Shown: positions 181 through 64,000 of the stretch, one piece after another
Layout: each line of letters opens with the position of its first letter
Numbering within the stretch: the first letter of the stretch is position 1
NCBI RefSeq assembly: GCF_029962835.1
Contig: NC_080579.1
Coordinates: 83,655,959 to 83,719,958, forward strand
DNA from: Magnolia sinica
Lineage: Eukaryota > Streptophyta > Magnoliopsida > Magnoliales > Magnoliaceae
Direction: 5' to 3'
DNA: 64,000 nt
Position numbers and translations under genes: made by a program
Notes under the pieces: model-generated
What the model was told of the DNA's origin: nothing
Databases searched by the model: none
The model's input: the letters and a program-made list of their open reading frames with translations, nothing else

Positions 181-845
181 TGGTGACCATGGCATTTTCT
201 ATCATCAACTATATCCTACCTAATCGATCCAGTGAGCATTTTCAATTTTTGATCCATGTTTTTGCTGTAAATCATGTTAAATTAGTGTCAAATGGTTACA
301 AATCTATGATTCTTCATGTTTCCTATGAAAAATCATGGATTTGGAACTTCAATTTCGAGATTTGGGAGAGATGGGTCAAGTTGCAAAAAATGGAGAAAAA
401 TAAAAAAATTCTCAATTTCTCACAAATCAATTGCAATCTTTGTATCCAAACACAAAATTAAACATGTAACCTGATCTAGTGATTCTTATTTTGCTTTTAA
501 ATGTATTACCTGTGTTTCCATAAATGTCTTCTTACGTTTATAAATTATATGAATAGACTTTGAATATAATTGCATCAATTCAGTTGGAAAGCACATATAT
601 CAAGACCCCATAAAAAGGAAACCCCTATTATGTGTACTTTTTTTGTAATGTTTAGATTTCTAAGTGTGTATTGATGTCTTTTTCAATAATCCGTGAAGTT
701 TCATTGAAAATTCTGACCAATTTCCCAATGTTCTCATGTTTCCCAACAAAAACGATACTTTATGTGATACAACCGATATATCCCATGCAGTAACCGATAT
801 TTATTCGTACGATACTTTACACGATAACGATATTTAAAGCATTTC
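181..845. mobile_element. hAT-like MITE, family 1, decayed copy
   Basis: From about 220 this sequence runs parallel to the two outer halves of the element at 60540-62107. It shares the segments around 'gagcattttcaat', 'ttcatgtttcctatgaaaaatc', the 'gaatagactttgaatata' block and the closing GATATTTAAAGCATT. Unlike that copy it lacks the inserted second MITE, so it serves as the empty-site comparison. Its left end is too diverged to place, and I cannot show a target duplication. Confidence 0.7.
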
Positions 846-16599: not shown

Positions 16600-17490
16600 A
16601 CCAACATTTGCAATATTAATTATATTATCAGCTAATATTATCGATATCACACCATGGTGATACAAAATATCACTAAAATGCATCTATTTCAATATGATAG
16701 TATCATGATATATCACATTGTATCAATAATCCTATTAGTACAATGCCATATTTTCAAAATATCATATATATATATATATATATATATATGGTTGTATCAA
16801 CGATACATTCAAATGTATCCTTGATATTATTGATGTTGACAATGACATTGACCCTCATTTATTTATTTTTTCCCTCGATTCTTCTATCCTAATCCATTGA
16901 GTGAATTTGATGAAATCCCTTCGATTATATAAAAGAGAAACTGGATTAGTTTTTTTAAAATGAAAATTAAGATTGGAAAGCGGGTGAGCTCGATTTTAAA
17001 ACGAAGACTCTTTTATTTTGATTTCGTTTTTATGTAAATCACTTGTAATCAGTAGAAATAAGATGAAGATCCATTATTTTGCACATTTTGTATGCTCAAT
17101 CATGGATTTTAATATCCAATTTAAAATTTTGGAGAAAATGAAAAAATTACTCGTGTTTTCATACATTTCTTTAGAATTATAAATGATATAAATTAATTTT
17201 AAATATAGTTGCATTACTTTTGTTATATAGTGTATAATTTAGGGCTTTATACAAATGAAATCTAATATGTGCACTTGCTTTTTGTGATATTTTTGTTTCT
17301 AATTGCTTATTGACGTTTTTTTTAATATCTTTAAAGTTTCGTTGAAAATTTTGACCAATTTCTTAATGTTTCCTATTGTAAAATAATGAAATATTATGTA
17401 TTACATCTGATATTTCTCAAATAATACTCGATATGTTTTCATATCCTAAGCGAATGAACATTCGTTGATACCGATAAAAAAAAAAATTTG
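16600..17490. mobile_element. Decayed hAT-like MITE sequence, family 1 related
   Basis: The TATC/GATA-rich character and blocks such as 'aaagtttcgttgaaaattttgac', 'caatttcttaatgtttcc' and 'tattgacgtttttttt' parallel the family 1 copies at 181-845 and 60540-62107. The ends are too worn to define. A (TA)n tract lies at 16763-16789. Confidence 0.6.
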
Positions 17491-34511: not shown

Positions 34512-36746
34512 TCATAGTGAATTTCTGTTATATCCTTGTGTTTGTGAAGTATAAATTTCATCTTTGTGGAACGGTTTACCTCTCCTAGGTACGTCTGCTA
34601 GTTCACAGAACTCTGACAAGACCTTTCTCGTCTTTAAACCTTTTCTCTTTTCTGCTGGCCGAGGTCCTAAAGCACTTGTATCTATACTCGCATTGTAATT
34701 CTGTGATGATTGTACAACAGCATCATAAGCCTTTGAAGAAAGACGCAGCCCCTCATTGCGAGCCCTCAAATACATCTCATACGCAAGTCTCGGCTTCGCA
34801 TCTATGGCTAGAGCTTCAATCAGCATCTCGTATGTAATCTCATTCGGCGTGATGTTCTGAACTTTCATGCGGTGAAACCACTCAAATGCAGCACTGCCCA
34901 TACTGTTCCGTGCACAGCCGCTTATGATCGCATTGTAGGTGACGACAGTCGGATCGTTTCCAGACGCAACCATCTCCCGGATGACTGAATCCACCTCCTC
35001 GGGCCGCCCTTGTCCAATGTAAACCGAGACAAGAATTGTGTATGCATGCAAATTCGGCTTGACACCCAACTTGCACATATGCTCCCATACCCGGAGAGCC
35101 TCATCATACATCTTCCCTTTCTCAAGGGCACTAAGCAATGCCCCATAAGAAAGGATTGTAGGTTTTTCACCTTGTTCGACCATCCTCCTAAATATTTCAA
35201 CTGCAGCCGAAGTCTCTGATGCCCTGGAGCAGGCAACAAGAACTGCATTCCACTCTCTGCTTCCTGGTTTTAGGCCTTTATCTTGCATCTTATTGATCAA
35301 CCTAACACCCCATCTCCAAATTCCCCTTCTGCTTGCTGCAGTAAGCAGTATATTGAAATGAGAAACAATCAGCTCATACGATAGATTATTGGGTTCTGGC
35401 CCCTTGTCCAACAAGTCCTCATAAATCTCCAATGCGGCCCACCATTTCTTCGCCTTCCCCATCAGCCATATCAAATGGTTGCAGACTGACAAGCTAATAT
35501 CACTCTCTGTTTCCCTTATCCTTCTATACAACTCTTTCGCTACAAGGTAGTGGCCTTCCATGGTACACGCCCACACAAGGCGCTCGTATTCCGCTTGACC
35601 GGGCCGGAGCCCCATCTTATCCATATCGGCAAGAAGCTTTAAGGCATTGGTAGTTGAATGATCTCTTTTCACAAGCCACCTCCGCATCACCTGGTAGCAA
35701 ATGCGAATCATGAAATTCTCAAGCTTAACAAGTTCATTCTCCCAATTCTCACCTGCATCTTTTCCAATCTCCCCCTTACGATACTTCTCCCTTGTTTCAA
35801 CGAAGAACTGAAGCGCCCCATCTGCATCTTCCATTCTTCGATATGCAAGTAAGGCTGTTGAATACGTCACAGCAGACGGAGATAGACCCTTCTCCTGGAT
35901 TTCAGCCATAATGCCAAGAGCCTCCTTTGGACGGCCTTGTTCGAGATAAACTGCCATCAAAGTGTTGTACGTTACAATGTTGGGGATGATGCCTTCCTTT
36001 TTCATATCTTCCATCACTTTATTGACTTGTCCGAATTGTTCTGATTGCTTCAGAGCACCCAAAAGACTGTTGTAGATGAAAAGGTTTGGGCCAGAAAAAC
36101 CACGGGAACCCTTCTTCTTTCTTTTAAGCCATTCAACGAGAGCAATGGCTGAATCCAATTTCCTATCAATGCCGAAACCTCTAATCATCGACGAATATAC
36201 AGGAAGAGGTAGCTCTTTGAAATCTTTAAGAACTTCCTCCACATCGTCAGCAGTTTTTGCACACTGCAAACTATGCGCCAATGCACGAACATCGATCTTC
36301 CCACTCTTCTCTTCACGTAATTTGCTTCTGTTTTCACAGTCTCCTCCTTCTGTATCACGACTGTCCTTGTCATTCTCAGATTCCTCTGAAAACCCACAAT
36401 TCAAATTCAATGCTCCTTGTGTAATTTCAACCCCGCCCACTTCCTGCTCCAAAGCCCAAGCCGAACCAACCATTGCCCCAAAAGAGCCGCTCTTCCGGTT
36501 GTGAACAAGAACCGAGTTGGGTTTCGAGCGATCGGTAGAAAATCCATTTCGGCTATCGAGATTCCGAACCTGACGGCAATTCAGTCCGCTACGGAAGCTG
36601 CTAATTCCCATTGAATTGATTGAAACAAGTGAAAGATTGGAACCAAAGCTCCATAATTTCTTCGAAATGCAAGAACCAAGATCAAAATTCAAATTGGGTG
36701 TTGCCAAAATGTCCATTTTCGAAGGCCAGATGCTCAGAGCCTGCAT
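34512..36746 (-). CDS. P-class pentatricopeptide repeat protein, probably plastid
   Basis: One uninterrupted frame of 744 residues. The open frame runs 11 codons further upstream, but the first of these is TTG; the first ATG is at 36746 (MQALSIWPSK), so I start there. Residues 1-90 are Ser/Arg/Asn-rich with few acidic residues, like a plastid transit peptide. About 11-12 PPR motifs follow from residue 183 (IYNSLLG, VTYNTLM, VTYSTAL, LSYGALL, HAYTILV, VTYNAII, ITYEMLI). The last six, from residue 497, are spaced exactly 35. There is no E or DYW tail. PPR proteins bind organelle RNA. From memory the C terminus (ALGPRP) recalls At3g46610/LPE1, a psbA translation factor; that assignment is tentative. 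Confidence 0.93.
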   Translation of the reverse strand: MQALSIWPSKMDILATPNLNFDLGSCISKKLWSFGSNLSLVSINSMGISSFRSGLNCRQVRNLDSRNGFSTDRSKPNSVLVHNRKSGSFGAMVGSAWALEQEVGGVEITQGALNLNCGFSEESENDKDSRDTEGGDCENRSKLREEKSGKIDVRALAHSLQCAKTADDVEEVLKDFKELPLPVYSSMIRGFGIDRKLDSAIALVEWLKRKKKGSRGFSGPNLFIYNSLLGALKQSEQFGQVNKVMEDMKKEGIIPNIVTYNTLMAVYLEQGRPKEALGIMAEIQEKGLSPSAVTYSTALLAYRRMEDADGALQFFVETREKYRKGEIGKDAGENWENELVKLENFMIRICYQVMRRWLVKRDHSTTNALKLLADMDKMGLRPGQAEYERLVWACTMEGHYLVAKELYRRIRETESDISLSVCNHLIWLMGKAKKWWAALEIYEDLLDKGPEPNNLSYELIVSHFNILLTAASRRGIWRWGVRLINKMQDKGLKPGSREWNAVLVACSRASETSAAVEIFRRMVEQGEKPTILSYGALLSALEKGKMYDEALRVWEHMCKLGVKPNLHAYTILVSVYIGQGRPEEVDSVIREMVASGNDPTVVTYNAIISGCARNSMGSAAFEWFHRMKVQNITPNEITYEMLIEALAIDAKPRLAYEMYLRARNEGLRLSSKAYDAVVQSSQNYNASIDTSALGPRPAEKRKGLKTRKVLSEFCELADVPRRGKPFHKDEIYTSQTQGYNRNSL

Positions 36747-37030
36747 TCTAGGGGGGATTTGCAAAGACCCAGAAAGCAAAATCCCATTCTAGAGAGAGAG
36801 AAAAGAACCTATTCTCATGACCAGCTTTCTATAGCAATTTTCAAAGATGAGAATAGAAGAAAGAGCAAACACCCATTTTGTTTCTTTGAAAGGAGAGATG
36901 GATTGTTCTTACCTTTTGAGATGATTGGGATGATGAGATACGGGTATTCTGTGAGAGTCTTGCTTTTGCAATTGTGCTGCGTGTCTGAAGCAGATTCTAT
37001 GAGGTGGGTTTTGGAATTTGGATAGGGTGG
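36747..37030 (-). promoter_or_regulatory. PPR gene 5' leader with probable intron
   Basis: On the minus strand CAAAAG|GTAAGAAC (donor at 36912) and TTTTCTCTCTCTCTAG|AATGG (acceptor at 36789) would define a 124-bp intron in the 5' UTR. After splicing, an upstream ATG at 36787 opens a short out-of-frame reading of 17 codons before the main start, which could dampen translation. Both sites match plant consensus well, but use is inferred. Confidence 0.55.
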
Positions 37031-42693: not shown

Positions 42694-45600
42694 CTGTGGA
42701 GAAAAAGCCACATCGTTACAGTTGAATTCCGGAATTCCCTTTAAAAGCTATTAATTTCTAAGGCATGCTATTTTGAACTACCATGGTTGATGGATACATC
42801 CATTTCTACTTTACAATAGTATAAGTGAATTCGTTGATTTTTACACCGACCTTGATTGCATTATCTATAGTCGAATATGAAAGAATGCCTGTGTGAACCA
42901 AGGAGGGTGTACTATATCAATTCCATCATTTTTATTTTTATTTTTATTTTTATTTTTGGCTCTTTTAAAAAAGGGTTCATTGCAGAAACGTCCCCTTAGT
43001 TATATGACCATCCCACATACATCCCCCTCTGTAACCCTTTGTTAGGAGCCTTTAAAGAATCTGCACTAGACCAAATGCCGCCACGAGGTAAATAGGCATT
43101 AGTGTTTATAGATGGCCTCCACCTTGTCTAGCAGGGCCATGCCCAAAAGAATATGTTGATCCAATCATCAGGTTGGTCACGCCGTAGAAAAATGCACCGC
43201 CAAAAAACTTCCAAATTCACGTGTTGGCCCATTTGATGGTTGGATTGGCCTGATCTTCGGGCATCCCATTTTCATGGTGGGTAAACCTAGTGGAAAGGTT
43301 TGGATGACATACACCATGGTGGACACCATACATGATCACAACTAGTTGCCTATGAGATTGGTAAAACGGTCATTTGCTCAAAGATAACGATGCTAAGGGA
43401 TCATGTGGCATAGTTGTCAAAAGCTAACAATTTACAATTCACGATATGAGTTGGATCTTAGGCAAAAAATTTTGAATCCCTTTTTGGATGAATCCTATGA
43501 TTCTAAAATTTTGAATCCCACTATTACAATTTGATTACTGGTTAACCATTTACAGTATACTTGTTCTCTTCTTTTTAAAAGCAAACATTTGTTTTAGAAT
43601 AGTCCAAACACATGCAGTGACTCTACTCAATCATAGTGCATTCATGTAATTTCTTTTGGAAAGAAGGGATCTAGCGAAACAAGGTTTTTGCAAATAAAAA
43701 AGCCACAATTATAGGGTCCTTATGCTTCAGGAAAAGTAAAAGGTCCTGATGCCGCCGGATGAAGTGGGGACCATGGTCCAATGATCAGGGACCCCACTTC
43801 ACAACAATGAAGGAGATGTTAAGCAAAACAATCCATTTGCTTCATGTTCATCCTTGCTTAAATACCATGCTAAAAAAAATATAAAACAAACCATGGAGTC
43901 ATAAGATGAGGCAAAACAAGAATTGAAACAATGCTGCATTCAGCTCAATAGATGAGCTGAAAAAAAGAAGAGAAAAAGGCCATTATGAAATGCTCAGGAA
44001 GAAAGTTTGTACAGTATCATTCAAATTACAGTTTGTAGTCTAGTGATCCAATAGTTTATGTTGAGGGGCTCCATGTGAATGGCCCATGCAACAAGAGTTG
44101 CAGAGAAAAAATATCAACCTTCAATAGGTGCCAACATAGACGGTTAAGAAAACATACAGCAGCAGTTCACATGGAAAAAAAATAAAAATAAAAAGCAAGT
44201 TACCTATTCGCTTGAAGCCTGTCATATCAATGGCTTGGATTACTAAACCACGGGCCCGCCCCACTCGTACAAACTAACAACCAACGTTCTAGTAATCACC
44301 GGTATTATTAATAATATAGGGAATAATATCTATATTGCCTGATTGGTGATACAGATACCACTAGAAATGCTGATTTTTCCAGGTATCGGTGACATATTGC
44401 AAATGCATTGATACTATATCGTATCGCCAAAATCATCTTGCCAGTTTCCATTTATAGTCTCCCTTGTATAAACTGTATCCATGATATTATTGTCAATAGA
44501 ACTCAAGAAGGGGGAAAATGTGAGTAAATACTGTGAAAATTAGAACAAATTCAGAAAAAAAATATACAATTGTTTTTTGTTTGTTTGTTTGTTTGTTTTT
44601 TCTTTTCTTTTTTTGAGTTAGGGAGTGGATTTCAATCACTCTTTAATTTTTGTGAATCAAATCCCTCATTTGTGGGAAAAAAATCAACACTCAAAAGCGC
44701 CAATGGGCCAAAACACAAAAGGTAAGAAATTTTTGAAAAATGGTTTTTATTTGTAGATTTTGTTATGGATTTCATTACAAATCCATGTCCATGCATGATC
44801 ATGCATAGACATGGATTTGAGTTGAAAAATTCAACATTTGGGAGGTGGAAATAAATCCTAATTTTCTCTAATTTCTTCCCTAAAATTGTTAAATAATGAG
44901 TGGATTTTTTGTATGTTGATGAGAGGTGGCCAATCTCTTGACTCACCAAAAGCTTTCCATATTTTGATTTTTTTTAATAAATTATTTAAAAAATAAAAAA
45001 TCTATTTTATTGTACAAAAAAATGACACTATTTCATGTAAAACATACTGTTGATGAGTGATGTGTTGCATTTTTATTGAAAATTATTTTTGAACTTTTAA
45101 AAATTATGAACAAAATTGTTTACTTTTAAAAAATATTAATGTTATTTCTCCATGTTTCCCGAAGTTAACCATACATTTCGAAGCATTGGCAATACCGATA
45201 CATGTAATGATACATATACTATGAACAGGGGAGAGAGAGAGAGAGAGGAAGGGGGGGGGGGGGGGAGGGCTAGATTTCAAAACCAAGTGTGTCTTCTTAT
45301 TTTAAATACCTCCTTGAAGATTGAAATACATTGCCGTAAAGCACGCTCAGCCTCTGGTTCAATCTCATGTGCTTCCTGAATTATCAAGCACATAAAAAAT
45401 TATTTGCAATAAATCCAAATGCAGCTTAGCACTTCAATCAAGCAAGATAAAATCAAGGACAAGCCCTGAAATGCACTTTTTTTAGTGCTGTAAATGCATT
45501 AAAAAAGTGAAAATATTTCAGATTAAATTTTGTTAAGATAATTTATTTTTATTCTGTTTGAAGGGCCTAAAGGAGGATGATAGGAACCCCCGAAAGGACT

Positions 45601-51600: not shown

Positions 51601-54600
51601 GGAGAAGAAACAGGGGAGCTATGCTCCTATGTCCACAAGAAAAGGGGAGGCATATTTTACAGCAGGCTTGAGCAATACCTTTGTCAGGTCTCAGTGGGGG
51701 AGATCTGGGGACACCGATAGTGTCCCTGGGAAGGGAGTTCTGCACCTTTTATTGGTCCCTTTAGCCTGGAAGGAATCATCAGAGAGAAGACTCCAGATAG
51801 TTGTGAATAATGCCATCACCATTGAAAGGAGCCTGCTGTGGTTTTGCCTTGTCAGGAAACTAATTTTGGCAAGGTCTCCACCAGCAACATTGCAGTCTCG
51901 GTGAAGGAAATTGGGCAATCATCGACTCTGACCGATGTAAGGAAGCTGGATTAATGTTTCTGTTGTGTGCTATTTAGGTTACTTCTGTTTTTTTTTTTTT
52001 TCATTAAAATATATTAAATAAAAACATTGGTTTTTATTAATCAGCACTAAAAAAGCATTAAAGATTCATGGGCTATGGATTTGATCCATTGTTGTTTAAG
52101 GTAGATTAGGCTTTAAAAAAAAATAATTTCATCTGGTTTCACTATTCTAATTTTCTTTTAGAACTTTTTTTTTTGTTTTTTTTTGTTTTTTTGTTTTTTG
52201 GTTTTTTTTTTTTTTTTTTGTATGACCTTCTAGATTATAAAACAGCTGGGGATATTGTGTTGTTCCTTGGATGTTTACTGAAATGATGGGTAGATAAATG
52301 GTTTTTATTTTTCAATTTTCAGATTCTTTAAGATTTTTCTCAAAGACAAAGGGAGTCCAGACAGCTCAGCCAGTTCGTATCAAGTCTACAAGTAGATTTG
52401 GTTTGGGTCATGACCTAGTCGATTTCAAATGCCTAGTATTAGAACATTGCATGTAGTCTAGCCATGATAAACCTTTTAAAGAAATTTGACGGTTCACCTA
52501 TGTTTCCATCAAGGAGGGGAATGGAATAACAATGGAATCTAACCAAAGAAAAATACAAAAAAGGATGTTGACAACAAAATGTGAGAGACCAAAAAGAAAA
52601 ACAGTCTCAAAGGAGATGGCATGATAACTAGTGGATTGAGTAATAGCAAGTCAGATGTCAAGTGGAAAAAATGGCAGAGGCAATATAATATTGTCAGCAG
52701 TGATTGTAGTATTGACAACATTGGCCTATAATATTGGTATCGTACCCTTCTGATATGAAGCTACCAAGGAGTTGTAAAACTCAATATATCCTCAATATCA
52801 TGATATATGGCAAAGTATTGTCCTATGCCATCGGTAAAGTTCCCTTGTATCGTCAATAAGTGATATATGTATTGATGATACTCCGACAAGTTTGCAACTT
52901 TTGAGTAATTTCTAAATGACTGGGTATCATCCATCACTCCCTAATTGAGTATCACAGTTTTTCTCATGAGTTATATGATACTCAGCTGTCTATGACACTT
53001 GATATGCATGCACTTCGAAATTGTACACGTGGCAGATATTAACTCAAACAAAACCGACTAGATTGCGCAGCCCACTGCCACGAGGCCCAAATCAGAATCC
53101 AAAGATCAGATTGGTTGAACAATCCTAACCTTTGATTCATGAACACTTGTGTGTGGAAATAGGGACTTCTGGATATATTTCACTTTTAACTGTCCGACAA
53201 AAGTCACTTAATTTCTGGTTAATGATACATCTACAGTGGCTACTGAAATTTGCACAGGTTCATCAACTACTTTCTTTTTTTGGAAAGATGACGAGATTTT
53301 ATTAAAAAAGCAAAAGCAAAAGGAAAGACAACTACAAAGGGCACCGACGAGGCGACAAGACTACAGCCCAAGAAAGACCCAATTACAACTCCTTAACTTG
53401 GGTTCACAAGCAGCCCATTCAATGACCAACGATCCAGCCCTTTGAGAAGTGCCTTCGACGGATTTGGAAACGTCATTGAAGCGTTTCTTTCTTCCCAAAT
53501 GGTAGCAAGGACATTCTCCATAGTGCTTTCTTCTCTTTCCCAAGGCCCACCCCATGCCAAGCAATCAAAAGAAGGTCCACCGATTCTGCGGCTATCCACA
53601 CCACCTGAAAACGTCCCAGAATATCTGCCCAAATCTGCCCCACAAAAGGACAATGCAGAAAAAAGGTGGTCCATCGTCTCCTTGTTGTGCATACACAAAA
53701 TGCAAATATTAGGGATCACCATTGATCTTTTATGGAGTTTGTTAATGGTAAGGACTCTCTTCCTTCCCACCAGCCAACCGAAAGCAGCTATCTTTGGAAG
53801 AACATTATATCACCAAATAAGCTTGTTAAACAATGTCGCCCCTTGTCAGCCTCCATCTCGCAAGCGAGAGTAGAAAGATTTGACCGAGAATGATCCCGAT
53901 TTTTCTAGCTTCCATGACATTGTCCTGATTAGAAGGAGATGGAGCAAAAAGATGAATATGATCCAAAAGGGCCACAAATTCGTCAACTTTCTTGTTAGGA
54001 AGAAATTGCCTACACAGGGGCTCCCAAACCACCACTCCTCCAATATGGGAAAAGTAATCCTCTATCGCAATAGAAGGAAGAAGAGACAAACGAAAAATAC
54101 TAGGAAATTCATCTTTCAAAGGCAAGGACCCCACTCAAGCATCTTCCCAAAATTGGATTTTTTCACTGTTCCCCAACGAAAAGCTAACCCCTTTCAACAA
54201 AGGCAGCTTCACTATCCTCTCCACAATGCCGACGGCTTATAAACTAATGCATCCCTAGTCCACCAACCCCGTTCGAAGACCCATATTTGCCTTTTATGAC
54301 TTCTTTCGAAAGCACCCCCTTCTTCCTCCCCAAACCTCTAAAGCCACTTACCAAGCAGCGCAATATTTGTGGACTTGAGATCTTTGACACTTGCCCCTCC
54401 CTCGTCATAGGACTCATAGACCCCATCCCAACTTAGTAAATGGATGGAATTTCTTTTTTTGTCTTCCTTCCCTTGCCATAAGAAATCCCTTCTGAGCTTC
54501 TCAAGCCTTTAGATAACTGAAGCCGGGCATTTGAAAAGTGACAAAAAATAAGAAGATTAAATAGAGCTGCTTTGATAAGCATGATGCGGCCTCCAAGCGG

Positions 54601-57600
54601 GAGATAACGGTTTTTCCATCAAGCAAGTTTCCTCTCAAATCTTCCCACCACCTTGTCCCAAAGGTGTTTAGCTGGTTTCCCAACACAAAAGGCAACCCAC
54701 AAACGAAGTTGGGGCACACCCAAAGACATCGGCTAACTGCTCCACATTGGCCGCCTCCATCTGCACCCCAAACATCTTGCTTTTAACTATATTGACCTTT
54801 AGGCCTGAAAGTGCCTCAAAGCACTAGATGAGAGTTCTCAACTTGTCCACCATTTCAGGAGACGCATCGCAAAAGAGGAGGATGTCGTTAGCAAATTGCA
54901 GATGACAGACGGGGAAAGGCATCCCCTCCACCTTAAAGCTGCTTATAAATCACTCCTCTTACCCCTTAGAGGAGTGAGAAAAAGAAATACCTCTACCACC
55001 ATGAGAAAAAGAAGAGATGGAGGATCTCCTTGACAAGGCCCCTATAACTTTTGAAGAAACCTTTTGGCGAGCCATTAAGAAGAACCAAGACATTCTATTA
55101 TCCATTTCCTCCATTTCCTCCCACACCCCATCCAGAGCATTATATAATCAAGAAAGCTCTAATTGACATGATCGTAAGCTTTCTCTATATCCAATTTGCA
55201 CACAATTCCTTTTGATCCCCTTTTGTGCATAGAATCAACGTACACATGAGCGATTAATGCACAATCAAGAATTTGCCGACCCGGGACAAAAGCACTTGGG
55301 TCCTCGGAGATAACACTACCAATGATGTTCCACAACTGAGTCGTAAGCACTTTTGCCAAAATTCTATAGGGCCCTCCGATGAGACTTATTGGCCGAAAAT
55401 CCTTTAGGGAATCCGCACTGGAGACCTTGGGAATAAGAGCGATGAATGACGTACCAAGATCACTCGATAACTTGCCCCCTTCATAAAATTTTGTCATGAA
55501 GTTCACAAGGTTGCTACTAACATCTTCCCAGAAAACATGGAAAAAAGTGATGGGGAATCCATTTGGACTCAGCTCTTTGTCTCACCCCCAACAAAGCAAC
55601 GGTGGCTTTGACCTCCTTTTTTTTTTTTTTTAAAAGGGCCTCAAGCGAGTCAACCTATTCAGTTGAGAGGCGATTGAAAGTGAGGTTGTCTAGCCTTGGT
55701 CTTTTTCCTCCCCCATCAACAAGTCTGCATAAAAACAAGAGACTTCTTCAGATAGATGGCCTTTGTCTTCAATGCGAGTACCATTGATGACTATGCTGCT
55801 GATTTTGTTTGTTCTAGCTTGAGTGCAAGCAGTGTTTGAAATATCGGTATTGTATTACGTATCGCATCCTTGGGATACAAATACGTATCGGTTATCGCAG
55901 AGGATATATCGTTTGTATTGGGTAATTTATCGCACTTTTTGAGAAACATGGGAAAACATTGGGAAAATTGTTGAATTTTCCAATGAAACTTCAGGGATTG
56001 TTAAAAAAGGGCCTTACACTTTCAAATCATAACATCTCAAAAAGAAGTGCACATAAAAGGTTTTGTATAGGGTCCTAAGCTATGCCTTGTATGACTGAAC
56101 TAATGCAACTATATCCAAATTAAATATATAACATTTAGAGTGTATGTGATGATCATTTCATTAAACACTCCTAAATACTTTGAAATTTGTCTCAATTGAC
56201 GGTTGGTTGAAGAGAAATTTAAAAAACATTAATATTTTATTAAATTTTAATTAAAAAATGATTTTTATTTTTTGAAAATTGACAATGACTTAACAAATCA
56301 GTAGATCGGCCCTCATACCTGCTTGATTTCATGTTTAGAGTACAACCATGCAAGCAATTTGGGGGAAATTTGGGAAATTTTGAATTTTCCCCAAATCGGA
56401 CCCCCTACACTCAAATTTCAAAATTAGATTGTATGTGATGATCATTTCATCAAATACTTCCAAATATTTCGAAATTAGTCTCAATTGACAGCTTGTTGAA
56501 GGAAAATTTCAAAAAAAAAAAAAAAAAAAAAAAAAAACACGGAGAACATGAAGAACCAATGGATATCGAAATCAAAGCTCCGATTCCATGATTTTTCATA
56601 CAAAACATGAAGAACCACTGGATATCGAAATTAAAGCTTCGATTCCATGATTTATCATACAAAACATGAAGAACCAATGGATTTATAACAATTTGACACC
56701 GATTTAATATAATTTCAACAAAAAAAGGGATATGAAATTGAAAATGCTCACTGGATCAAACATGTGGGATATATTGGCGCTACTAGTGCATTTCGTATCG
56801 CACAAGTGAGATACAAGATATATATTGGGATATATCGGCCGATATTGTCAATATTTAAAACATTGAGTGCAAGCAATGCTATGGAAATACTTCGTATTTT
56901 TGTTGCACTCCTTGATCCAAATGCTTCTCGATCATTGTATCCATTTTATTTTGTCTTCTTTCACCTTGCCTGCATGTTCCTGAATAAGCTTAATCTGCCT
57001 AGCTAATTCTTCAGGAGACGGGTCGTTAACCTCCGCTTTGACATCAAGGGCCTGCAATTCGATAAGGACCCAATTGAATGCTACCCGTGCAATTTCTAAG
57101 TGCCTGCATATCATCGATTAAACTCAAGCAAAGTTTCTCTTTTCTCATTTAGAATAAATTTCCATGTTATTTTACCACATTATAAAAAAATGGTGGTAAC
57201 TCTTTTGATTGTAAACATGTCATAGTTGTATGACAATCTAGACTGTCCAAATTATTAGCCCACTAAACTAATAGATAAACTAACATAATTTTTGGTTCAT
57301 CATACGTCTAAATTTGGGACCTGTAATTTGGATGGCTTGATCTGAATTACTTGTAGGATATTTGAAAGAGATGAACTCATTTGGATATACTGCATCACCT
57401 CTGTTAAACAACGTATGGTTCCCTATGCACAAAAAACATATCATCCATTCTTGTTTCTTGTAATATTATGAGTTCTATGTGTGTAATCATGTCTCTTTTA
57501 ACATCTCCTGAAGTTTCATTGAAAGATTCCATCATTTTCCCAATGTTTCTCTCAGACAGTGATGTATTCCCCGATACATGTGATATTTCCCTTGCAATAC

Positions 57601-57958
57601 CGATATGTTTCCATATCCCGCGGGTGCGATACATGCATTGATACTGATACTGCGAACACTAATCCTCATAATGCCATAGTTGCTGAACAATGAATAATGG
57701 GAGGGAGAAAATATGGTTGGTTCTATTATAGGAGCTTATAATGGACAAGAAGTAAATGGAGCAGGATATGTAAGATGAAAATTTTAGGTCATGGCTGCCC
57801 GATGGGCCAGCAGATGGTAATCATAATGTTATACATTCAAGTGGAAGCAAGCATTCAGGTCCATCAGTTCCAGTTGAATCGCGAGCAAAGCTCGACATTG
57901 CTAGCGAAGCTCTACGACAGAGCAGTGTGCTCATTTCCATTATAGAGCCAATCACACT

Positions 57959-58004
<46 letters not shown>

Positions 58005-58815
58005 GCCAAAATGTAGAATTGTCGGAGTCCTAGATCGGTACATGCACTAATATCCTGTAGAGAGAGCTGCTACTGAACCATGAAACTAATACTATTTACA
58101 ATTGGCATGAGGAATTGGAAAGAAAAAAGGAGTCTTCCCATAAGAATGCTTCTTACTGTATTTATAATACAAATTTCTGTGTGGCCTAAGCTGGCCCACT
58201 TAATAGTGGACCACTAGATAGGAGGATCCCATTCTAGCATGCACATGAACACAAAATCAACTTGAATGAACCATTAAAATTATTCAGTTAAGGGCTTGTG
58301 AAATGGATGGTAAGACCATAGTTAATCAAACCACCCATTTTTCAGGCCCTTAATAAAATGACTGTAATAATACAATCAGGTGATTTTGGAGCCACATACA
58401 TTCCGCTGCAGACCCTTCCTATCCAATCATTGTTGGTGAGCAGGTGGGCCCACCCTTGCCCTACAGCGAAATCTTTCTCAGTATACAGTCAAAATTATCA
58501 CGGGAGCTCAGAAAAGAAAGTTCATGAATATAAGGTACAATATACATAAAGGTTTTACCATTGGCAATTTTACTTTCTGAGCAAAAACCCAGTTAAGTAT
58601 TGTTATGAAAAAACCTATATAATCAAGCTTATCATAAAACAGGGATTAAAAAAAAAGCCAGTAGAAAATAAGAAGAGTTCTTTCATGAACTTCAATATAA
58701 ACTGACCAGTATGACAAGTGCTGCATGCTCATCCTTCAAATTTTCTTTGGCCTCTCCATTATTGTGCATGTTGCCTTTATTTTCTTTTGTCCTATACAAA
58801 ACTAGCCTTGCTATC
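42502..58815 (-). CDS. Unrecognised spliced gene, last four exons
   Basis: I do not recognise this protein. Four exons splice in phase: 58815-58707 (36 codons after one carried base), 49892-49830 (21), 45375-45310 (22) and 42693-42502 (63 plus stop), giving 142 residues of C terminus. Every junction has a GT donor and AG acceptor, and all four frames stay open. The sequence is acidic and helix-prone (LALVEITKLELEEPT, EAHEIEPEAERALRQ). It ends in a coiled-coil-like tail (REMKEEIKRLEAEL) and a basic NRKSRS. The three introns are about 8.8, 4.5 and 2.6 kb and are full of repeats. The 5' part lies to the right, possibly outside the window. Exons between these cannot be excluded. Confidence 0.62.
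42700..44330. other. Intron sequence, no other gene seen
   Basis: Holds a (TTTTA)n run at 42928-42957 and otherwise unremarkable non-coding DNA. Confidence 0.5.
44340..45210. mobile_element. TATCG-rich MITE remnants
   Basis: 44340-44470 and 45120-45210 show the TATCGGTGATA / CAATACCGATAC style of the hAT-like families 1 and 2 ('tctccatgtttcccgaagttaac'). A (GTTT)n run lies at 44573-44598. The ends cannot be defined. Confidence 0.5.
44778..44819. repeat. 42-bp near-perfect palindrome
   Basis: CAAATCCATGTCCATGCATGA is followed without spacer by its inverse, with one mismatch pair in 21. It can form a strong hairpin or cruciform. It lies inside an intron. Confidence 0.92.
45310..45375 (-). CDS. 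Unrecognised gene, exon 3 seen
   Basis: Acceptor AATTCAG|GAAGC and donor AAGGAG|GTATTT. It has 22 codons, EAHEIEPEAERAL...IFKE, phase 0 at both ends. Confidence 0.62.
45775..46150. mobile_element. Inverted-repeat element, family 3 relative
   Basis: Left 'gtccatcaggta', 'aggtgagccaccccatagga'; right, inverted, 'actgtgtggcctacctgag', 'cttacctaatggaag', 'cacccatgtggccc'. It has the same architecture as family 3 but a diverged sequence. Confidence 0.6.
46560..47310 (+). pseudogene. Possible decayed coding fragment, unrecognised
   Basis: A 70-codon stretch open from a stop at about 47103 to a stop at 47312 reads protein-like: MMVPLGVEMLEDIV, ESLVLDVRDLSLVVDG, KYLQWLRLKNQ. Upstream a second acidic piece (DDIDTDEKEDDELM, about 46590) is in another frame. 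I recognise no family. It could be a gene scrap or chance. Confidence 0.25.
47793..48049. mobile_element. hAT-like MITE, family 6, 257 bp
   Basis: Flanked by perfect 8-bp repeats GGTAGAGT (47785-47792 and 48050-48057). The ends are CAAGGTATTCCGTAACGG and, inversely, CATGGTGTGTTGTGAAGG. The interior is a run of GTAACGG/CCGTTAC-type repeats plus poly-T. No coding capacity. Confidence 0.88.
48220..48929. mobile_element. hAT-like MITE, family 6, 710 bp
   Basis: Flanked by ATTCCTAT (48212-48219) and ATGCCTAT (48930-48937), 7 of 8. The ends are CAAGGTGTTCCGTAT and, inversely, TAAGGTATTATGTAT, so the last G has become A. It is a longer member of the family at 47793, with an AT-rich middle; the two are 170 bp apart. 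Confidence 0.87.
48938..49829. other. Intron sequence, no other gene seen
   Basis: Non-coding. Fragments such as 'gggacccacccaatgg' hint at old MITE debris. Confidence 0.45.
49830..49892 (-). CDS. Unrecognised gene, exon 2 seen
   Basis: Acceptor TGCACGCAG|TTGCAA and donor CCAACG|GTCAGT. It has 21 codons, LQSLDALALV...LEEPT, phase 0 at both ends. Confidence 0.62.
49893..51429. other. Intron sequence, no other gene seen
   Basis: AT-rich, without family signatures on either strand. Open frames at 50448-51494 (minus) do not resemble known proteins. Confidence 0.45.
51430..51905 (+). pseudogene. RRM-like coding scrap, broken
   Basis: Reading from about 51436 gives LGFVHFHSLDNVQKAINVLNGKKV, whose FVHF and AINVLNGKKV parts look like the RNP1 and C-terminal strands of an RRM. 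A stop follows, then a 101-codon frame with no recognised domain (51599-51904). It may be LINE ORF1 or a captured gene piece. Confidence 0.35.
51906..53260. other. Intron sequence with T-rich runs and TATC-rich debris
   Basis: Long T runs at 51990-52001 and 52165-52220. 52725-52910 has the TATCG/GATATA style of the hAT-like families. No gene seen. Confidence 0.5.
53268..57114 (-). pseudogene. L1-type LINE ORF2 remnant, split by a MITE
   Basis: On the minus strand, in order: the region before RT (WVLIELQALDVKAEV, EDKIKWIQ, SIWIKECNKNTKYFHSIA at 57103-56880), interrupted by the MITE at 55830-56865. It resumes as ARTNKISSIVINGTRIEDKG and EEVSCFYADLL. RT follows with RPISLIGGPYRILAKVL, SAFVPGRQILD and CKLDIEKAYDHVN (55159-55506). 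The catalytic box reads FAND (about 54894-54905), so one Asp is lost. The zf-RVT end is at 53400-53770 (NKLHKRSMVIPNICILC). The 3' end is at about 53268, with a T run on the plus strand as the tail. Endonuclease is missing. Confidence 0.9.
55830..56865. mobile_element. hAT-like MITE, family 1, 1036 bp, inside the LINE
   Basis: Perfect 8-bp repeats AGTGCAAG flank it (55822-55829 and 56866-56873). The ends are CAGTGTTTGAAATATCGG and, inversely, CAATGTTTTAAATATTGAC. Removing it and one repeat rejoins the LINE reading frame (SIACTQARTNK). Poly-A at 56513-56536. The orientation is opposite to the copy at 60540. Confidence 0.92.
57380..57660. mobile_element. hAT-like MITE, family 2, partial
   Basis: 'acatctcctgaagtttcattgaa', 'cccaatgtttctc', 'gatatgtttccatatccc' and the end 'gatactgcgaacact' match the right part of the element at 62322-63180. 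The left part is missing. Confidence 0.65.
57959..58002. repeat. (TC)n microsatellite
   Basis: About 22 TC units, with Arg-Glu repeat frames on the minus strand as artefacts. Confidence 0.97.
58707..58815 (-). CDS. Unrecognised gene, exon 1 seen
   Basis: Acceptor TTATTTTTTTCTAG|GATAGC is strong and donor ATACTG|GTCAGT is fair. It reads IARLVLYRTKEN...DEHAALVIL. It has a hydrophobic start, an Asn/Lys/Glu-rich middle and ends on a whole codon. Confidence 0.6.
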
Positions 58816-59260
58816 CTAGAAAAAAATAAGTTGTATGATTACTTGGGCAGAATTTCATATTTCTAGAATGCTCATAATCAGATGACAACCTCCGATTCAC
58901 TAGGGTGCATAGGCATTGCAACTATCAATATTCTGCAACAGATGTTTCCAGGTTAATTTTCTTAAGTAAACTGCAAGCATGAAACAAGTAAACAGAAAGC
59001 CTTTATGCTGTCACACTCACATATGAATCAATGAGTGGAAGATAAAGAAAATCTTGAAATGAATGCACACCATATACCAATTCCATTTTCATGACAGAGT
59101 TTTTTAAAAAAAGGTTCAAATTGAAGCTAACCAAAAAGTAAATAATGAGGCAATAGTTAACTATTTACAGTGTTAGAAACTCGGCCATTACATTATTCTC
59201 ACCTTTTGCCCACACAGAATATTTTTATTATACAGGATACTAAGGGCTTGTTTGGCTTTG

Positions 59261-59318
<58 letters not shown>

Positions 59319-60530
59319 ATGTATATATATTATGATTTTGATTCTGAAAATCTCTTTTTTAGGCTTTTAGTATGTTTGGTTAGCCAATTAATTAATCAAT
59401 TTTAGAAAAACAATTTTCCAAATTTGTGCTTTTTTCCTTGACACCTAGCCCCTAGTTTCGTATAGTCTTCTATGCTTGTACAAACTTAGGAAAAGCACTC
59501 ATAAAATACAAGATCTGTGTGTGTGTTATTGGAAGGTCAGTTAATTGCAGTGTATAGCTGTACCCTTCCACACATGTGCCATCATGGATCAAATCCCATC
59601 CACCAGTTGGTCTGTCCATGTTTTACCTAAAATTAATCTGGTTGACTCACATGATGGGCCCCAATATTGAAAAGAGGTGGATGGGTTAGAAAACTTCGGC
59701 CAAGTGTTAGAGACGTACAATTTGATTAGCAAATTGTGGCCCACCTGAGTAGTGGATCAACCTAATTCTTGGGCTAGGGCATCAATATAGTGGTGCCTTT
59801 CTAATTGATGGATTGGATCTTAGACCTACATGCCATGATGGCAAAACTGTGGCATGTACAGAGTTGTATTGTGCAAGTGCATGGGCTTAGCAGATCTCAT
59901 CTCTAGAGAAGTCGGACAAACGCGACTTTCCTATAACCCCCATCTGCAGCGTTGTGGGGTCCACCGCGATGACCGTGCATCCTTTTCGCGATATCATGTC
60001 AGGTTATGACTCCAAAAAATGAGGTAGATTCAAGACTTAAGTGGGCCAAGCCATAGGAAACTGTGGGGATTCAATGCTCACCATTGAAACCTTTGTAGGG
60101 AAATTGTTTTCTTATACATCTTTACCAAACATGCACTTTTTCACATAAGCAATTCTCAAGAAACAATTCTAGAAGCAACACCAAACCATCCCTAAAAAAA
60201 AGTTATCAAATGGAGCTACTTTCTCAGTATACTGCCGCATTGGACTTTCAAATATAGTAAAAAAATAAAACTCCAAAATACAACTCAACTTGATATTTTA
60301 ATAAATAATTTAAATTATTTACTGTAGTGGAAAATTTTTATTAGTGGAAGGGTCATCATCATTATCATCTAAGCTTTATGCCAACTAATTGGTGTCGGTT
60401 ACATGAATCCATTTCCTCCATTCCACCATCAAGGGCCCAAACTTCAATTAGACCATAGGTCATTGACTTTTTCCTTACTAACTTCACCTTTGTTCTTCTA
60501 AGCCTTCCCTTTGCCCTTTTAGAGCCTTCT
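58816..60530. other. Non-coding stretch with microsatellite and half element
   Basis: (TA)n then (GT)n at 59262-59318. 59945-60110 carries a left arm of a family 3 inverted-repeat element ('gtggggtccaccgcgatg', 'ttaagtgggccaagccatagg'). Upstream exons of the unknown gene may hide here, but I could not find one with good phase. Confidence 0.5.
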
Positions 60531-60539
60531 ACTTATACC

Positions 60540-62107
60540 CAGTGTTTTAAATATCGACGATATCAGCTGATATATCTTGTATCCCACTTGTGTGATATGA
60601 AATGCACAAGCAGTGTCGATATATCTCACCTATTCGATCCAATGAGCATTTTCGATCCATGTTTTTATCGTAAATCGTGTTAAACCAGTGTCCAATGGTT
60701 ACAAATTTATTATTCTTCATGTTTTCCATGAAAAATCATAGATTTGGAACTTCGATTTCGAGATTTGGGGGAGATGGGTCAAGTTACGGAAAATTGAGAA
60801 TATTCAAAATTTCTCAATTTCTCGCAAATTAGTTGCAATCCTTGTATCCAATTCCAAACACAAAATTAAACATGTATGCAGTGTTCAAAGTATTGGTATC
60901 GCTACAAAGTTTCGCTGGCTAGGGATATGGAAACAATATTGATATTGTCGATAATAATATCGCTGATAACCGCAAATGCGGCAAAACATGGGAAAAACGG
61001 TGTAATTTTTAGCAAAACTTCAGGAGAGATTAAAATGTACATATTTACATATTTAGAAATAAAACATTTGTAAAAGGAATACATACATAACAAGTTTCCA
61101 TTTAATGGGGCCTTAAAAGCATGTTTTGTTGTAAGAAATCAATCCAACCATCTCATCCGGCCTATTTAATCATCCAACCTTCCATCCAAACATCCATCGA
61201 TATTGCAAAATATCAACAACACATGATATTTCACCAAGAAATCATCAACAATTGGAAAGGAAACAGAAGATTGTGGTCTCAATATCGCGCATGTTACAAT
61301 ATCGATAATATCGAGATATTATCAATATTATCAATGACAAATTGAACATTACGTACAACCATGTGCCCATGAAAAAAATTGAAATAAATTTTTTCTAATA
61401 AACAAAAATTTAATGATATCAATTTGTTGGCGATATTATTGAAATATCGTCGTTACACTTATGATACAAACATTACCTAGAATTTACATAGTCGAAAATA
61501 TTGGCGATATTGATGCGTTGGTAATACAAGCGACACCTAGAATTTACATAGTTGAAAATATTGGGGATTATATTAGTGATATTGATATGTTGGCGATACT
61601 TAGCTATACATTGCTAATACCTGGAATTTTTGATACTACCAGCGCTATCGGTATCGCTACCAGTGCTATCGGTATCATTGAGCTGAAGATAAAGATAATA
61701 TCGGAGATAATTCGAACATTGCATGTATGTAACCTGATCTAGCGATTCTTCTTTCGCTTTTGAATGTATTGCTTGTGTTTCCATGCATGTCTTCTTACTT
61801 TTATAAATTATATGAATAGACTTTGAATATACTTGCATTAGTTTAGTTGGAAAGCGCATATATTAGGACCCCAAACAAAGGAAACCCTATTATGTGCACT
61901 TTCTTTTTGTAATGTTTTGATTTCTAAGTGTGTATTGATGTCTTTTTCAACAATCCCTGAAGTTTCATTGAAAAAAATGACCAATTTCCCAATATTCCCA
62001 TGTTTCCCAACAACAACGATACAACCGATGTATCCTATGTGATAACCGATATGTATCTGTATCGCAAGGGTGTGATACATTATGTGATAATGATATTTAA
62101 AACATTA
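60540..62107. mobile_element. hAT-like MITE, family 1, carrying a nested family 2 MITE
   Basis: Perfect 8-bp repeats CTTATACC flank it (60532-60539 and 62108-62115). The ends are CAGTGTTTTAAATATCG and, inversely, TAATGTTTTAAATATCA. Without the nested element and its duplication it is 717 bp and parallels the copy at 181-845. No coding capacity. Confidence 0.93.
60879..61721. mobile_element. hAT-like MITE, family 2, 843 bp
   Basis: Perfect 8-bp repeats CATGTATG flank it (60871-60878 and 61722-61729). The ends are CAGTGTTCAAAG and, inversely, CAATGTTCGAA. The copy at 181-845 runs uninterrupted across this point, as an empty site should. The interior has two tandem units of about 64 bp ('cctagaatttacatagt', from 61471) and repeats of 'gctatcggtatc'. 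Confidence 0.93.
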
Positions 62108-62115
62108 CTTATACC

Positions 62116-63213
62116 CAATGTTCGAAATATTGATATCGTGTTATGTATCTCATCATTGGGATACAGATACATATCGGTTTTTGCATGGGATATATCGTTT
62201 GTATCATAATTTATTGCACTTTTTGGGAAACATGGGGAAACATCGGGAAAATGGTTGAATTTTTCAATGAAACTTCAAGGATTGTTAAAAAAGACCTTAA
62301 TAAACCCTTTTAAATTATAACCAGTGTTCAAATTATCTCCGATATTATCGAAATATCTCTGATATTATCTTTATCTCCAACTAAGCGATATCGATAACAC
62401 TGGTAGCGATACTGATAACGCTGGTAGTATCAGAAATTCTAGGTATTAGCAATGTATCGCTAGGTATCACCAACATATAATATTGCTAATGTAATCGTCA
62501 ATATTTTCAACTATGTAAATTCTAGGTGTCGCTTGTATTGCTAATGCATCAATATCGCCAATGTATCACCAATATTTTCGACTATGTAAATTTTAAGTAA
62601 TGCTTGTATCATAAGTGTATCAACGATATTTCAATAATATCGCCAACGTATTGATATCATCAGAATTTTGTTTATTAGGAAAAAATTATTTCAATTTTTT
62701 TCTCATGGGCACATGGTTGTTTGTAGTGTTCAATTTGTCATTGAAAATATCAATAACATCCCGATATTATCGATATCGCAACATGCGCGATATTGAGACC
62801 ACAATCTTTCGTTTTCTTTCCAATTGTTGATGATTTCTTGGTGAAATATCAAATGTTGTTGATATTTTGAAATATCGATGGATGTTTGGATGGTTAAATA
62901 GGCTAAATGGGATGGTTGGACTGATTTCGTACAACAACATATGCTTTTGAGGCCCCATTAAATGGAAACTTGTTATGTATGCATTCTTTTTGTAATTGTT
63001 TTGTTTCTAAATATGCAAATATGTACATTTTAACATCTCCTGAAGTTTCGCTGAAAATTCCACCGTTTTTCCCATGTTTTCCCACATTTTTGGTTATCAG
63101 TTATATTATTGGCGATATCGATATTGTTTCCGTATCCCTGGCCAGCGAAACTTGTAGCGATACCGATACTTCGAACACTAATTAGAACATCTCAAAAAAG
63201 AAGTGCACATAAT
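62116..63213. mobile_element. hAT-like MITE, family 1, left part with nested family 2 copy
   Basis: Begins CAATGTTCGAAATATTG directly after the duplication of the preceding element and follows the left part of the copy at 55830 ('atatcgtttgtat', 'caatgaaacttca', 'gaagtgcacataa'). It is interrupted by the element at 62322-63180 and stops where another family 1 end begins at 63214. Confidence 0.8.
62322..63180. mobile_element. hAT-like MITE, family 2, 859 bp, inverted copy
   Basis: Flanked by ATTATAAC (62314-62321) and ATTAGAAC (63181-63188), 7 of 8. It is the reverse complement of the element at 60879-61721 over its whole length. The uninterrupted sequence at the matching point in the 55830 copy ('caaatcataacatctc') shows the empty site. 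Confidence 0.92.
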
Positions 63214-63655
63214 CAATGTTTTAAACATTGATGATATCGGCCGATATATCTTGTATCTTACTTGTGCGATATGAAATGCACAAGTAGTGTCGATATATCC
63301 CACATTTTCGATCCGGTGAGCATTTTCAATTCATATCACTTTTTTGTTGAAATTATATTAAATCAGTGTCAATTGGTTATAAATCGATTGGTTCTTCATG
63401 TTTTGTATGAAAAATCATAGAGCTGAAGCTTTGATTTAGATATCCATTGGTTCTTAATGTTCTCAATTGAGACTAATTTCAAAATATTTAGAAGTATCTG
63501 ATGAAATGATCATCACATACACTCTAATTTTGAAATTCGAGTGTAGGGGGTCTGATTTGGGGAAATTTCAAAATTTCCCAAAATTCTCCCAAATTGCTAG
63601 CAATGTTGTACTCTAAACATGAAATCAATCAGGTATGAGGACTGATGATGCAGGA
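63214..63655. mobile_element. hAT-like MITE, family 1, truncated, reversed
   Basis: Starts CAATGTTTTAAACATTG and follows the reverse complement of 56865 down to about 56300 ('gatgatcatcacatacac', 'gtgtagggggtc'). Similarity ends near 63655. Confidence 0.8.
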
Positions 63656-64000
63656 CATGAAAATTAACTATGATATACAAGATCTCAGGCCTTAGATCAA
63701 ACTAATTCAGAAACATTCACATAAAATTTCCACATCCCACACAAAAGTTCAAACATTCAAGCAATGGGAATCTGTGCGGGTCCAGGCCTACACATGTTAG
63801 GGCTGGATCAATAGAAATTATAAGCCAAACGATACTCAAAGGGAGGAAAAACTCATTCACACATGCACAGTAATCAGTCCTTAATCCAAGAGATTCACCA
63901 GTTTCAATTTAGAAAACCCTAGGATTAAAAAAGAGGCAAACAAATTGAAAATAATGCAATCTAGGGTTAAGGTTATGGAAAATAGGTATGAGAGAGATAA
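63656..64000. other. Window end, no gene seen
   Basis: AT-rich sequence with no coding or repeat signal that I can support. Confidence 0.45.

Follow-up and report, generated by a model that had tools for sequence, protein, structure and literature searches.

How two copies of one transposable element family came to lie side by side with a single 8-bp sequence between them, each interrupted by a member of a second family, is the question raised by a nest of elements near the right end of the analysed window, a stretch of 64,000 nucleotides of Magnolia sinica DNA. The nest very probably consists of small non-autonomous hAT-type elements that arrived by separate cut-and-paste insertions, two of which, F1a and F1b, used one and the same 8-bp target, with such re-use being recurrent in the genome.

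Structure of the nest

The nest opens with CTTATACC (60532..60539), the re-used target, which occurs three times in all. It is followed by F1a, a family 1 element on the plus strand (60540..62107), which measures 717 bp after removal of the family 2 element F2a (60879..61721, plus strand) and of one of the two CATGTATG duplications that flank F2a on the left (60871..60878) and on the right (61722..61729). The middle copy of CTTATACC (62108..62115) is common to F1a and to F1b, the second family 1 copy, which lies on the minus strand, starts directly after CTTATACC at 62116 and continues past the window end at 64000 to 66076. Within F1b, the inverted family 2 element F2b (62322..63180, minus strand) is placed between ATTATAAC (62314..62321) and ATTAGAAC (63181..63188), which differ by 1 mismatch. 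A third family 1 copy, F1c (plus strand), also lies within F1b; it follows its left duplication CACATAAT (63206..63213), starts at 63214 and continues past 64000 to 65377. F1c is in turn interrupted by an LTR-like insert of 1210 bp (63646..64000 in the window and on to 64855), which has TG...CA ends and a 5-bp duplication, ACTGA, present twice, and is thus a candidate solo LTR of an LTR retrotransposon.

The ends assigned in the preliminary description to F1a, F2a and F2b, together with the family 1 ends at 62116 and 63214, were all found to be exact, and so were its duplications, CTTATACC twice at F1a, CATGTATG twice at F2a and the ATTATAAC/ATTAGAAC pair at F2b. Two 8-mers taken from random window positions agree by chance with a frequency of 8e-5 for perfect identity and 7e-4 at ≤1 mismatch. 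F2a and F2b share 89% identity over 826 aligned columns, and sites without a family 2 insert were seen in paralogues from the window, namely in F1e for F2a (4 bp shorter there) and in F1d, F1a and F1e for F2b.

The partner duplications of F1b and F1c are absent from the 64-kb window. A usual insertion required a further CTTATACC for F1b and a further CACATAAT for F1c, and both were then found when 9.9 kb downstream of the window was read. F1c ends at 65377 and is followed by the second CACATAAT at 65378-65385, while F1b ends at 66076 and is followed by CTTATACC at 66077-66084. The earlier claim that the second family 1 copy is cut by a third at 63214 is borne out, with F1c lying inside F1b and having its own two ends and duplication. 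The reading of F1b and F1c as one half-inverted element was ruled out, given that each has two ends and its own duplication. Additionally, CTTATACC is present three times around F1a and F1b (starting at 60532, 62108 and 66077) and, therefore, one target was used by two different family 1 copies.

Read around their inserts, F1b and F1c align with the intact copy F1d at 86.0% identity (898 columns) and 91.2% identity (908 columns), respectively. Homology of F1b extends up to the base that precedes 63214. A segment of about 60 bp next to the F1c site, present in both F1d and F1c, is missing from F1b, so that the F1c site has no perfect empty match.

The following order of events is proposed from this arrangement. 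F1a and F1b, which are about 80% alike in their overlap, would have inserted in succession at one target, producing the order CTTATACC - F1a - CTTATACC - F1b - CTTATACC, and either of them may have come first. Family 2 would then have entered both, F2a into F1a and F2b into F1b, while F1c would have entered F1b and the LTR-like sequence would have entered F1c. The nesting places F1a before F2a, F1b before both F2b and F1c, and F1c before the LTR-like insert.

Other copies in the window

The preliminary description had counted five family 1 and three family 2 copies, a census that is replaced by the profile search of the window, which returned seven copies or fragments of family 1 and two clear copies of family 2. 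Apart from the nest, they comprise F1d (55830..56865, minus strand), a complete long-form copy of 1036 bp that had not been listed before, that serves as the reference for F1b and F1c and that is flanked by AGTGCAAG at 55822-55829 and 56866-56873; F1e (209..843, plus strand), which has no left end and no family 2 interruption; F1f (17141..17476, plus strand), a decayed fragment recovered by the profile search; and F1g (57354..57661, plus strand), a right-end fragment. F1g scores better with the family 1 model (124 bits) than with the family 2 model (64 bits) and clusters with family 2 in a small tree (92/100 bootstraps), and it is therefore considered intermediate between the two families. At 44285-44497 and 52698-52812, weak similarity to the profiles of family 2 and of a family 1 left end perhaps marks old remnants; the E values are 0.0056, 0.03 and 0.079, the best of 20 shuffles reached 0.12 and 0.17, and these matches were excluded from the copy counts.

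In the remainder of the window, the only long gene seen is a 755-aa open frame encoding a pentatricopeptide-repeat protein (34512-36779, minus strand). Retroelement fragments occur at 850-2042, 3798-4205 and 23671-24138 and comprise integrase parts, presumably of gypsy type, a reverse transcriptase and an integrase core that we take to be of copia type; these fragments and the pentatricopeptide-repeat gene indicate plant DNA. Scans of the window for Rfam families and tRNAs returned no match.

Nature of the elements

Elements of the hAT superfamily have short inverted ends starting with CA(G/A)NG and a target preference of the nTnnnnAn kind. The ends of both families read CA(G/A)TGTT (CAGTGTT/CAATGTT), with 12 to 15 of the 20 end bases inverted-identical. 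Outside the nest, end pairs were picked within a small range for the best duplication fit, and on this basis 8-bp duplications were perfect in 20/42 family 2 end pairs (from 39 loci) and matched at ≤1 mismatch in 33/42, while the corresponding values for family 1, of which 20 of 39 other places were fetched, were 12/20 and 16/20. The consensus of the target duplications is palindromic and close to VTTnnAAB in both families; after symmetrisation, T at position 2 together with A at position 7 reaches 58% in family 2 (33 duplications) and 78% in family 1 (16 duplications).

The two families are homologous over about 220 bp of their right ends (profile E 7e-13 to 5e-11). Both are also dense in TATCG/CGATA motifs, which occur at 10-24 per kb versus 0.9 per kb elsewhere in the window. 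In family 1 these motifs lie mostly less than 200 bp from the ends (7/7 and 9/11), and in family 2 they are spread, with 8/16 and 12/21 at this distance. They may represent putative transposase sites, in analogy to AAACGG, which Ac transposase binds according to the excerpted text of PMC3260210.

Stop-to-stop frames longer than 101 aa are absent from 55800-64000. The hAT transposase is marked by the hAT dimerisation domain, PF05699, and no hAT transposase match was obtained among 10/11 ORFs of the window. The short form of family 1, to which F1a belongs, measures 717-749 bp in 18/20 fetched places, among which one (L067) was fitted with 719 bp and another (L051) with 915 bp; the long form measures 922-1036 bp and was sampled in the window and at re-use places only, whereas family 2 copies are mostly 820-880 bp long. 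Copy number is high, with 5677 and 4585 first-look candidates in the searched genome (1.84 Gb, 127 contigs). The earlier description of the nest as hAT-like, non-autonomous and nested is supported by the 8-bp duplications, the CA(G/A)TGTT ends and the lack of any frame above 101 aa. However, family 2 and the long form of family 1 are larger than the usual MITE size and, therefore, "small non-autonomous hAT element" is a safer name than MITE.

Both families were likely moved by one shared hAT transposase, as judged from their homologous right ends, the dense TATCG/CGATA motifs, the similar target consensus and the four of 17 places, described below, in which family 1 and family 2 share a target. 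Of the two explanations offered in the preliminary description for the double hit of family 2 on family 1, that of a joint movement is thus likely by these indirect signs in the sense of one transposase, whereas that of a preferred target finds no support outside the window.

Does family 2 prefer family 1?

The idea that family 2 inserts preferentially into family 1, for instance through transposase sitting on TATCG motifs and attracting elements into the family 1 body, draws on the enrichment of these motifs in both families and on the window itself. There, both clear family 2 copies lie within family 1 (simulated P 0.0024, a post hoc value obtained on the discovery data) and at least 3 of 9 insertions are nested (simulated P 0.0084). 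Outside the window, however, the comparison with chance that had been suggested revealed no excess in a sample of 39 loci made up of the best-preserved family 2 copies. Only one of them (L036) lies inside family 1 versus 0.9 expected, the expectation being taken from the family 1 density in family 2 flanks (2.3% of 156,465 bases, the family 1 bases of L036 included); one further copy (L022) lies inside family 2. A preference of family 2 for family 1 is accordingly very unlikely, and a striking local nest is no evidence that one family targets another.

Target re-use across the genome

The re-use of a target was searched for genome-wide with a family-specific pattern, in which the end AACAYTG was sought within 30 bp outside intact family 1 or family 2 ends (2148 and 881 ends, respectively; the family 1 motif fits short-form right ends too). 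A gap of exactly 8 bp was found in 15/37 rows at family 1 ends, representing 14 places, versus 0.73 rows per other gap (Poisson 3.7e-15), and in 4/13 rows at family 2 ends versus 0.30 per other gap (Poisson 2.7e-4). Reversed-pattern controls gave 0 and 1, respectively. No row was dropped from these counts, in which one place contributes two rows and one is shared between the family 1 and family 2 lists.

All 17 unique places with the 8-bp gap were fetched; they are spread over 12 contigs and their spacers differ. Six are pairs of family 1 copies (L070, L072, L075, L077, L079, L080), four are pairs of family 1 with family 2 on one target (L071, L076, L083, L084) and one is a pair of family 2 copies (L085). 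In four others, family 1 lies beside another or unmodelled end (L069, L073, L074, L078), and in the remaining two it lies inside family 2, at an inner end-like site (L081, L082). At ≤1 mismatch, the spacer 8-mer recurs at both outer ends in 5/17 places (L071, L072, L073, L077, L084), at one outer end in 7/17 (L069, L074, L076, L078, L079, L081, L083) and at neither in 5/17 (L070, L075, L080, L082, L085); these counts are lower bounds, because several outer ends fall outside the fetched stretch or belong to a truncated partner, and a 2-mismatch outer copy is present in 3 of the 5 places without a closer one. At the window locus, CTTATACC occupies the spacer and both outer ends.

A broad pattern, GAACAYTG-gap-CARTGTT, showed no excess, with 201+217 matches versus 530+523 for its reversed control. 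Seven of the 100 matches listed, which were opposite-strand rows of the same place, were dropped, and the 93 usable ones among the matches listed displayed a weak bulge at gap 8 (6 matches) and gap 7 (8 matches). Since the broad pattern falls below its control, the re-use signal is seen only with the longer, family-specific ends.

Two further adjoining pairs were noticed. At 66298-67763, downstream of the window (L009 2357-3822), family 1 and family 2 adjoin with the spacer CTCATAC(C), a junction nearly that of CTTATACC, and no matching outer 8-mers were found by eye. At L042 2069-3776, two family 2 copies stand head to tail, separated by about 1 base, and their outer flanks lack a matching 8-mer; this tandem differs in kind from the 8-bp-spaced ones.

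Origin of the adjoining pairs

A pair such as F1a-F1b could also result from one event, either the landing of two linked elements as a composite or a reversed-ends (alternative) transposition, as in maize Ac/fAc, that placed both ends at one target. The right ends of F1a and F1b face each other, and the excerpts of PMC8225341 describe both composite insertions and 8-bp duplications at the breakpoints of Ac/fAc products. However, a composite that lands once predicts equal 8-mers at the outer ends and an unrelated spacer, whereas all three 8-mers are CTTATACC here, and three alike 8-mers (≤1 mismatch) were likewise found in 5/17 other places, in direct, inverted and mixed-family pairs. Three equal 8-mers therefore refute a single-event origin for such pairs, which leaves it highly improbable for F1a-F1b. 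An assembly artefact or a segmental duplication that set copies side by side has a negligible probability, considering that the junctions coincide exactly with element ends and are accompanied by matching duplications, that the copies differ by 10-25% and that the arrangement recurs at 17 places on 12 contigs with different spacers. Successive insertion at one target is thus the preferred reading for F1a and F1b. The likely reason for re-use is that any target already used must, by definition, suit the transposase (VTTnnAAB) and is present in two copies after the insertion.

The degree of re-use was compared with the target preference of the elements themselves, using a matrix built from 49 target duplications from other loci. 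This matrix predicts that a used target is re-used 19.1-fold more often than a random position. The observed re-use at family 1 ends amounts to 15/0.73 (all other gaps) to 15/0.64 (gaps 9-30), that is, 20- to 23-fold on neighbour-gap counts that are small and partly made of chance 7-mers; the values for family 2 are 4/0.30 (all other gaps) to 4/0.27 (gaps 9-30). Additionally, 17/19 spacer rows have a matrix score above 5 versus 4.2% of random 8-mers. Within the nest, CTTATACC scores 18, while CATGTATG (2.0) and CACATAAT (3.2) score low. Since prediction and observation are close, sequence preference would be sufficient within the error of small counts, and we infer that it is the main cause of re-use. 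A contribution beyond it, in which transposase or chromatin that persists after a recent insertion steers a further element to the duplication just made, could find room in the fact that chance 7-mers probably inflate the neighbour-gap count, so that true re-use could exceed 23-fold. Nevertheless, it is unlikely, given that the matrix alone yields a value near the count and that F1a and F1b belong to different subfamilies, which argues against sister copies hopping at once. If sequence preference is the main cause, the target preference of an element predicts roughly how often re-use occurs, and tandem transposon pairs, which have been proposed as a seed of satellite DNA and composite elements, would form without a special mechanism, provided that full counts agree.

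Family 2 and the element F3

The family 2 consensus, derived from 41 copies, carries GTTGTATG after about 390 bases, with a target score of 18.8, followed by TAGTGTTCAATTTGTC, which is similar to the left end of an element and differs from CAGTGTT by a single base. Over the following ~130 bases the consensus resembles the left end of another element, F3 (41 bits at L069 and 29 bits at L074), and its last 220 bases match family 1. No matching right end was found in the consensus ahead of the inner end. It is conceivable, though rather doubtful, that family 2 is the fossil of side-by-side elements fused via a common target and later moving as one unit, as this order of parts in the consensus could suggest; if true, target re-use creates new families.

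F3 itself is a 2772-bp element that extends from L069 position 1163 into L086 (C1:70248662-70251433), with GTTATGAC on both sides. It has the same kind of ends, and its TATCG clusters occur only near them. Neither a Pfam family nor, specifically, a hAT transposase match was obtained in the 9 ORFs of its L086 part.

Comparison with known systems

A search by title and abstract, in which full texts were covered in part, found no report of hAT target re-use, and searches with the letters of the end sequences returned nothing relevant; in the excerpts of PMC1562414 and PMC2997013, target re-use is not the subject.

The closest precedent is offered by P elements of Drosophila melanogaster, for which double insertion at one site was described (McGurk and Barbash 2018, as summarised in excerpts of the review PMC9659126). 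As in that system, the copies described here stand in tandem, with a junction matching a target duplication in length and consensus, in agreement with repeated insertion at one site. In contrast to P elements, which are insect elements of the P superfamily, the present ones are plant elements of hAT type, belong to several families, form mixed pairs and have a re-use rate that is predicted by a target matrix.

Small non-autonomous elements inserted within members of the same or another family are likewise found among the nested MITEs of maize and rice (Jiang and Wessler 2001, via excerpts of PMC3695323). However, insertion into the same family is common there according to that text, while family 2 lies within family 1 at 1/39 loci here. 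The carrot DcSto elements treated in the same excerpts likewise form clusters and nests, with single positions hit independently more than once, but they are of Stowaway type with a TA duplication, compared with 8 bp in the present case.

Maize Ds and Ds-like elements, as portrayed in the excerpts of PMC3260210, share with the families of this study the 8-bp duplications, the short ends, a subterminal repeat motif, lengths of up to ~1 kb and the existence of classes that are alike in little but their ends. They differ in the sequence of the ends and in the motif, which is AAACGG in Ds and TATCG/CGATA here, and nested Ds are called rare in that text and tied to chromosome breakage. Double insertion into one target is already known from P elements, and it is described here in a plant with hAT-type elements.
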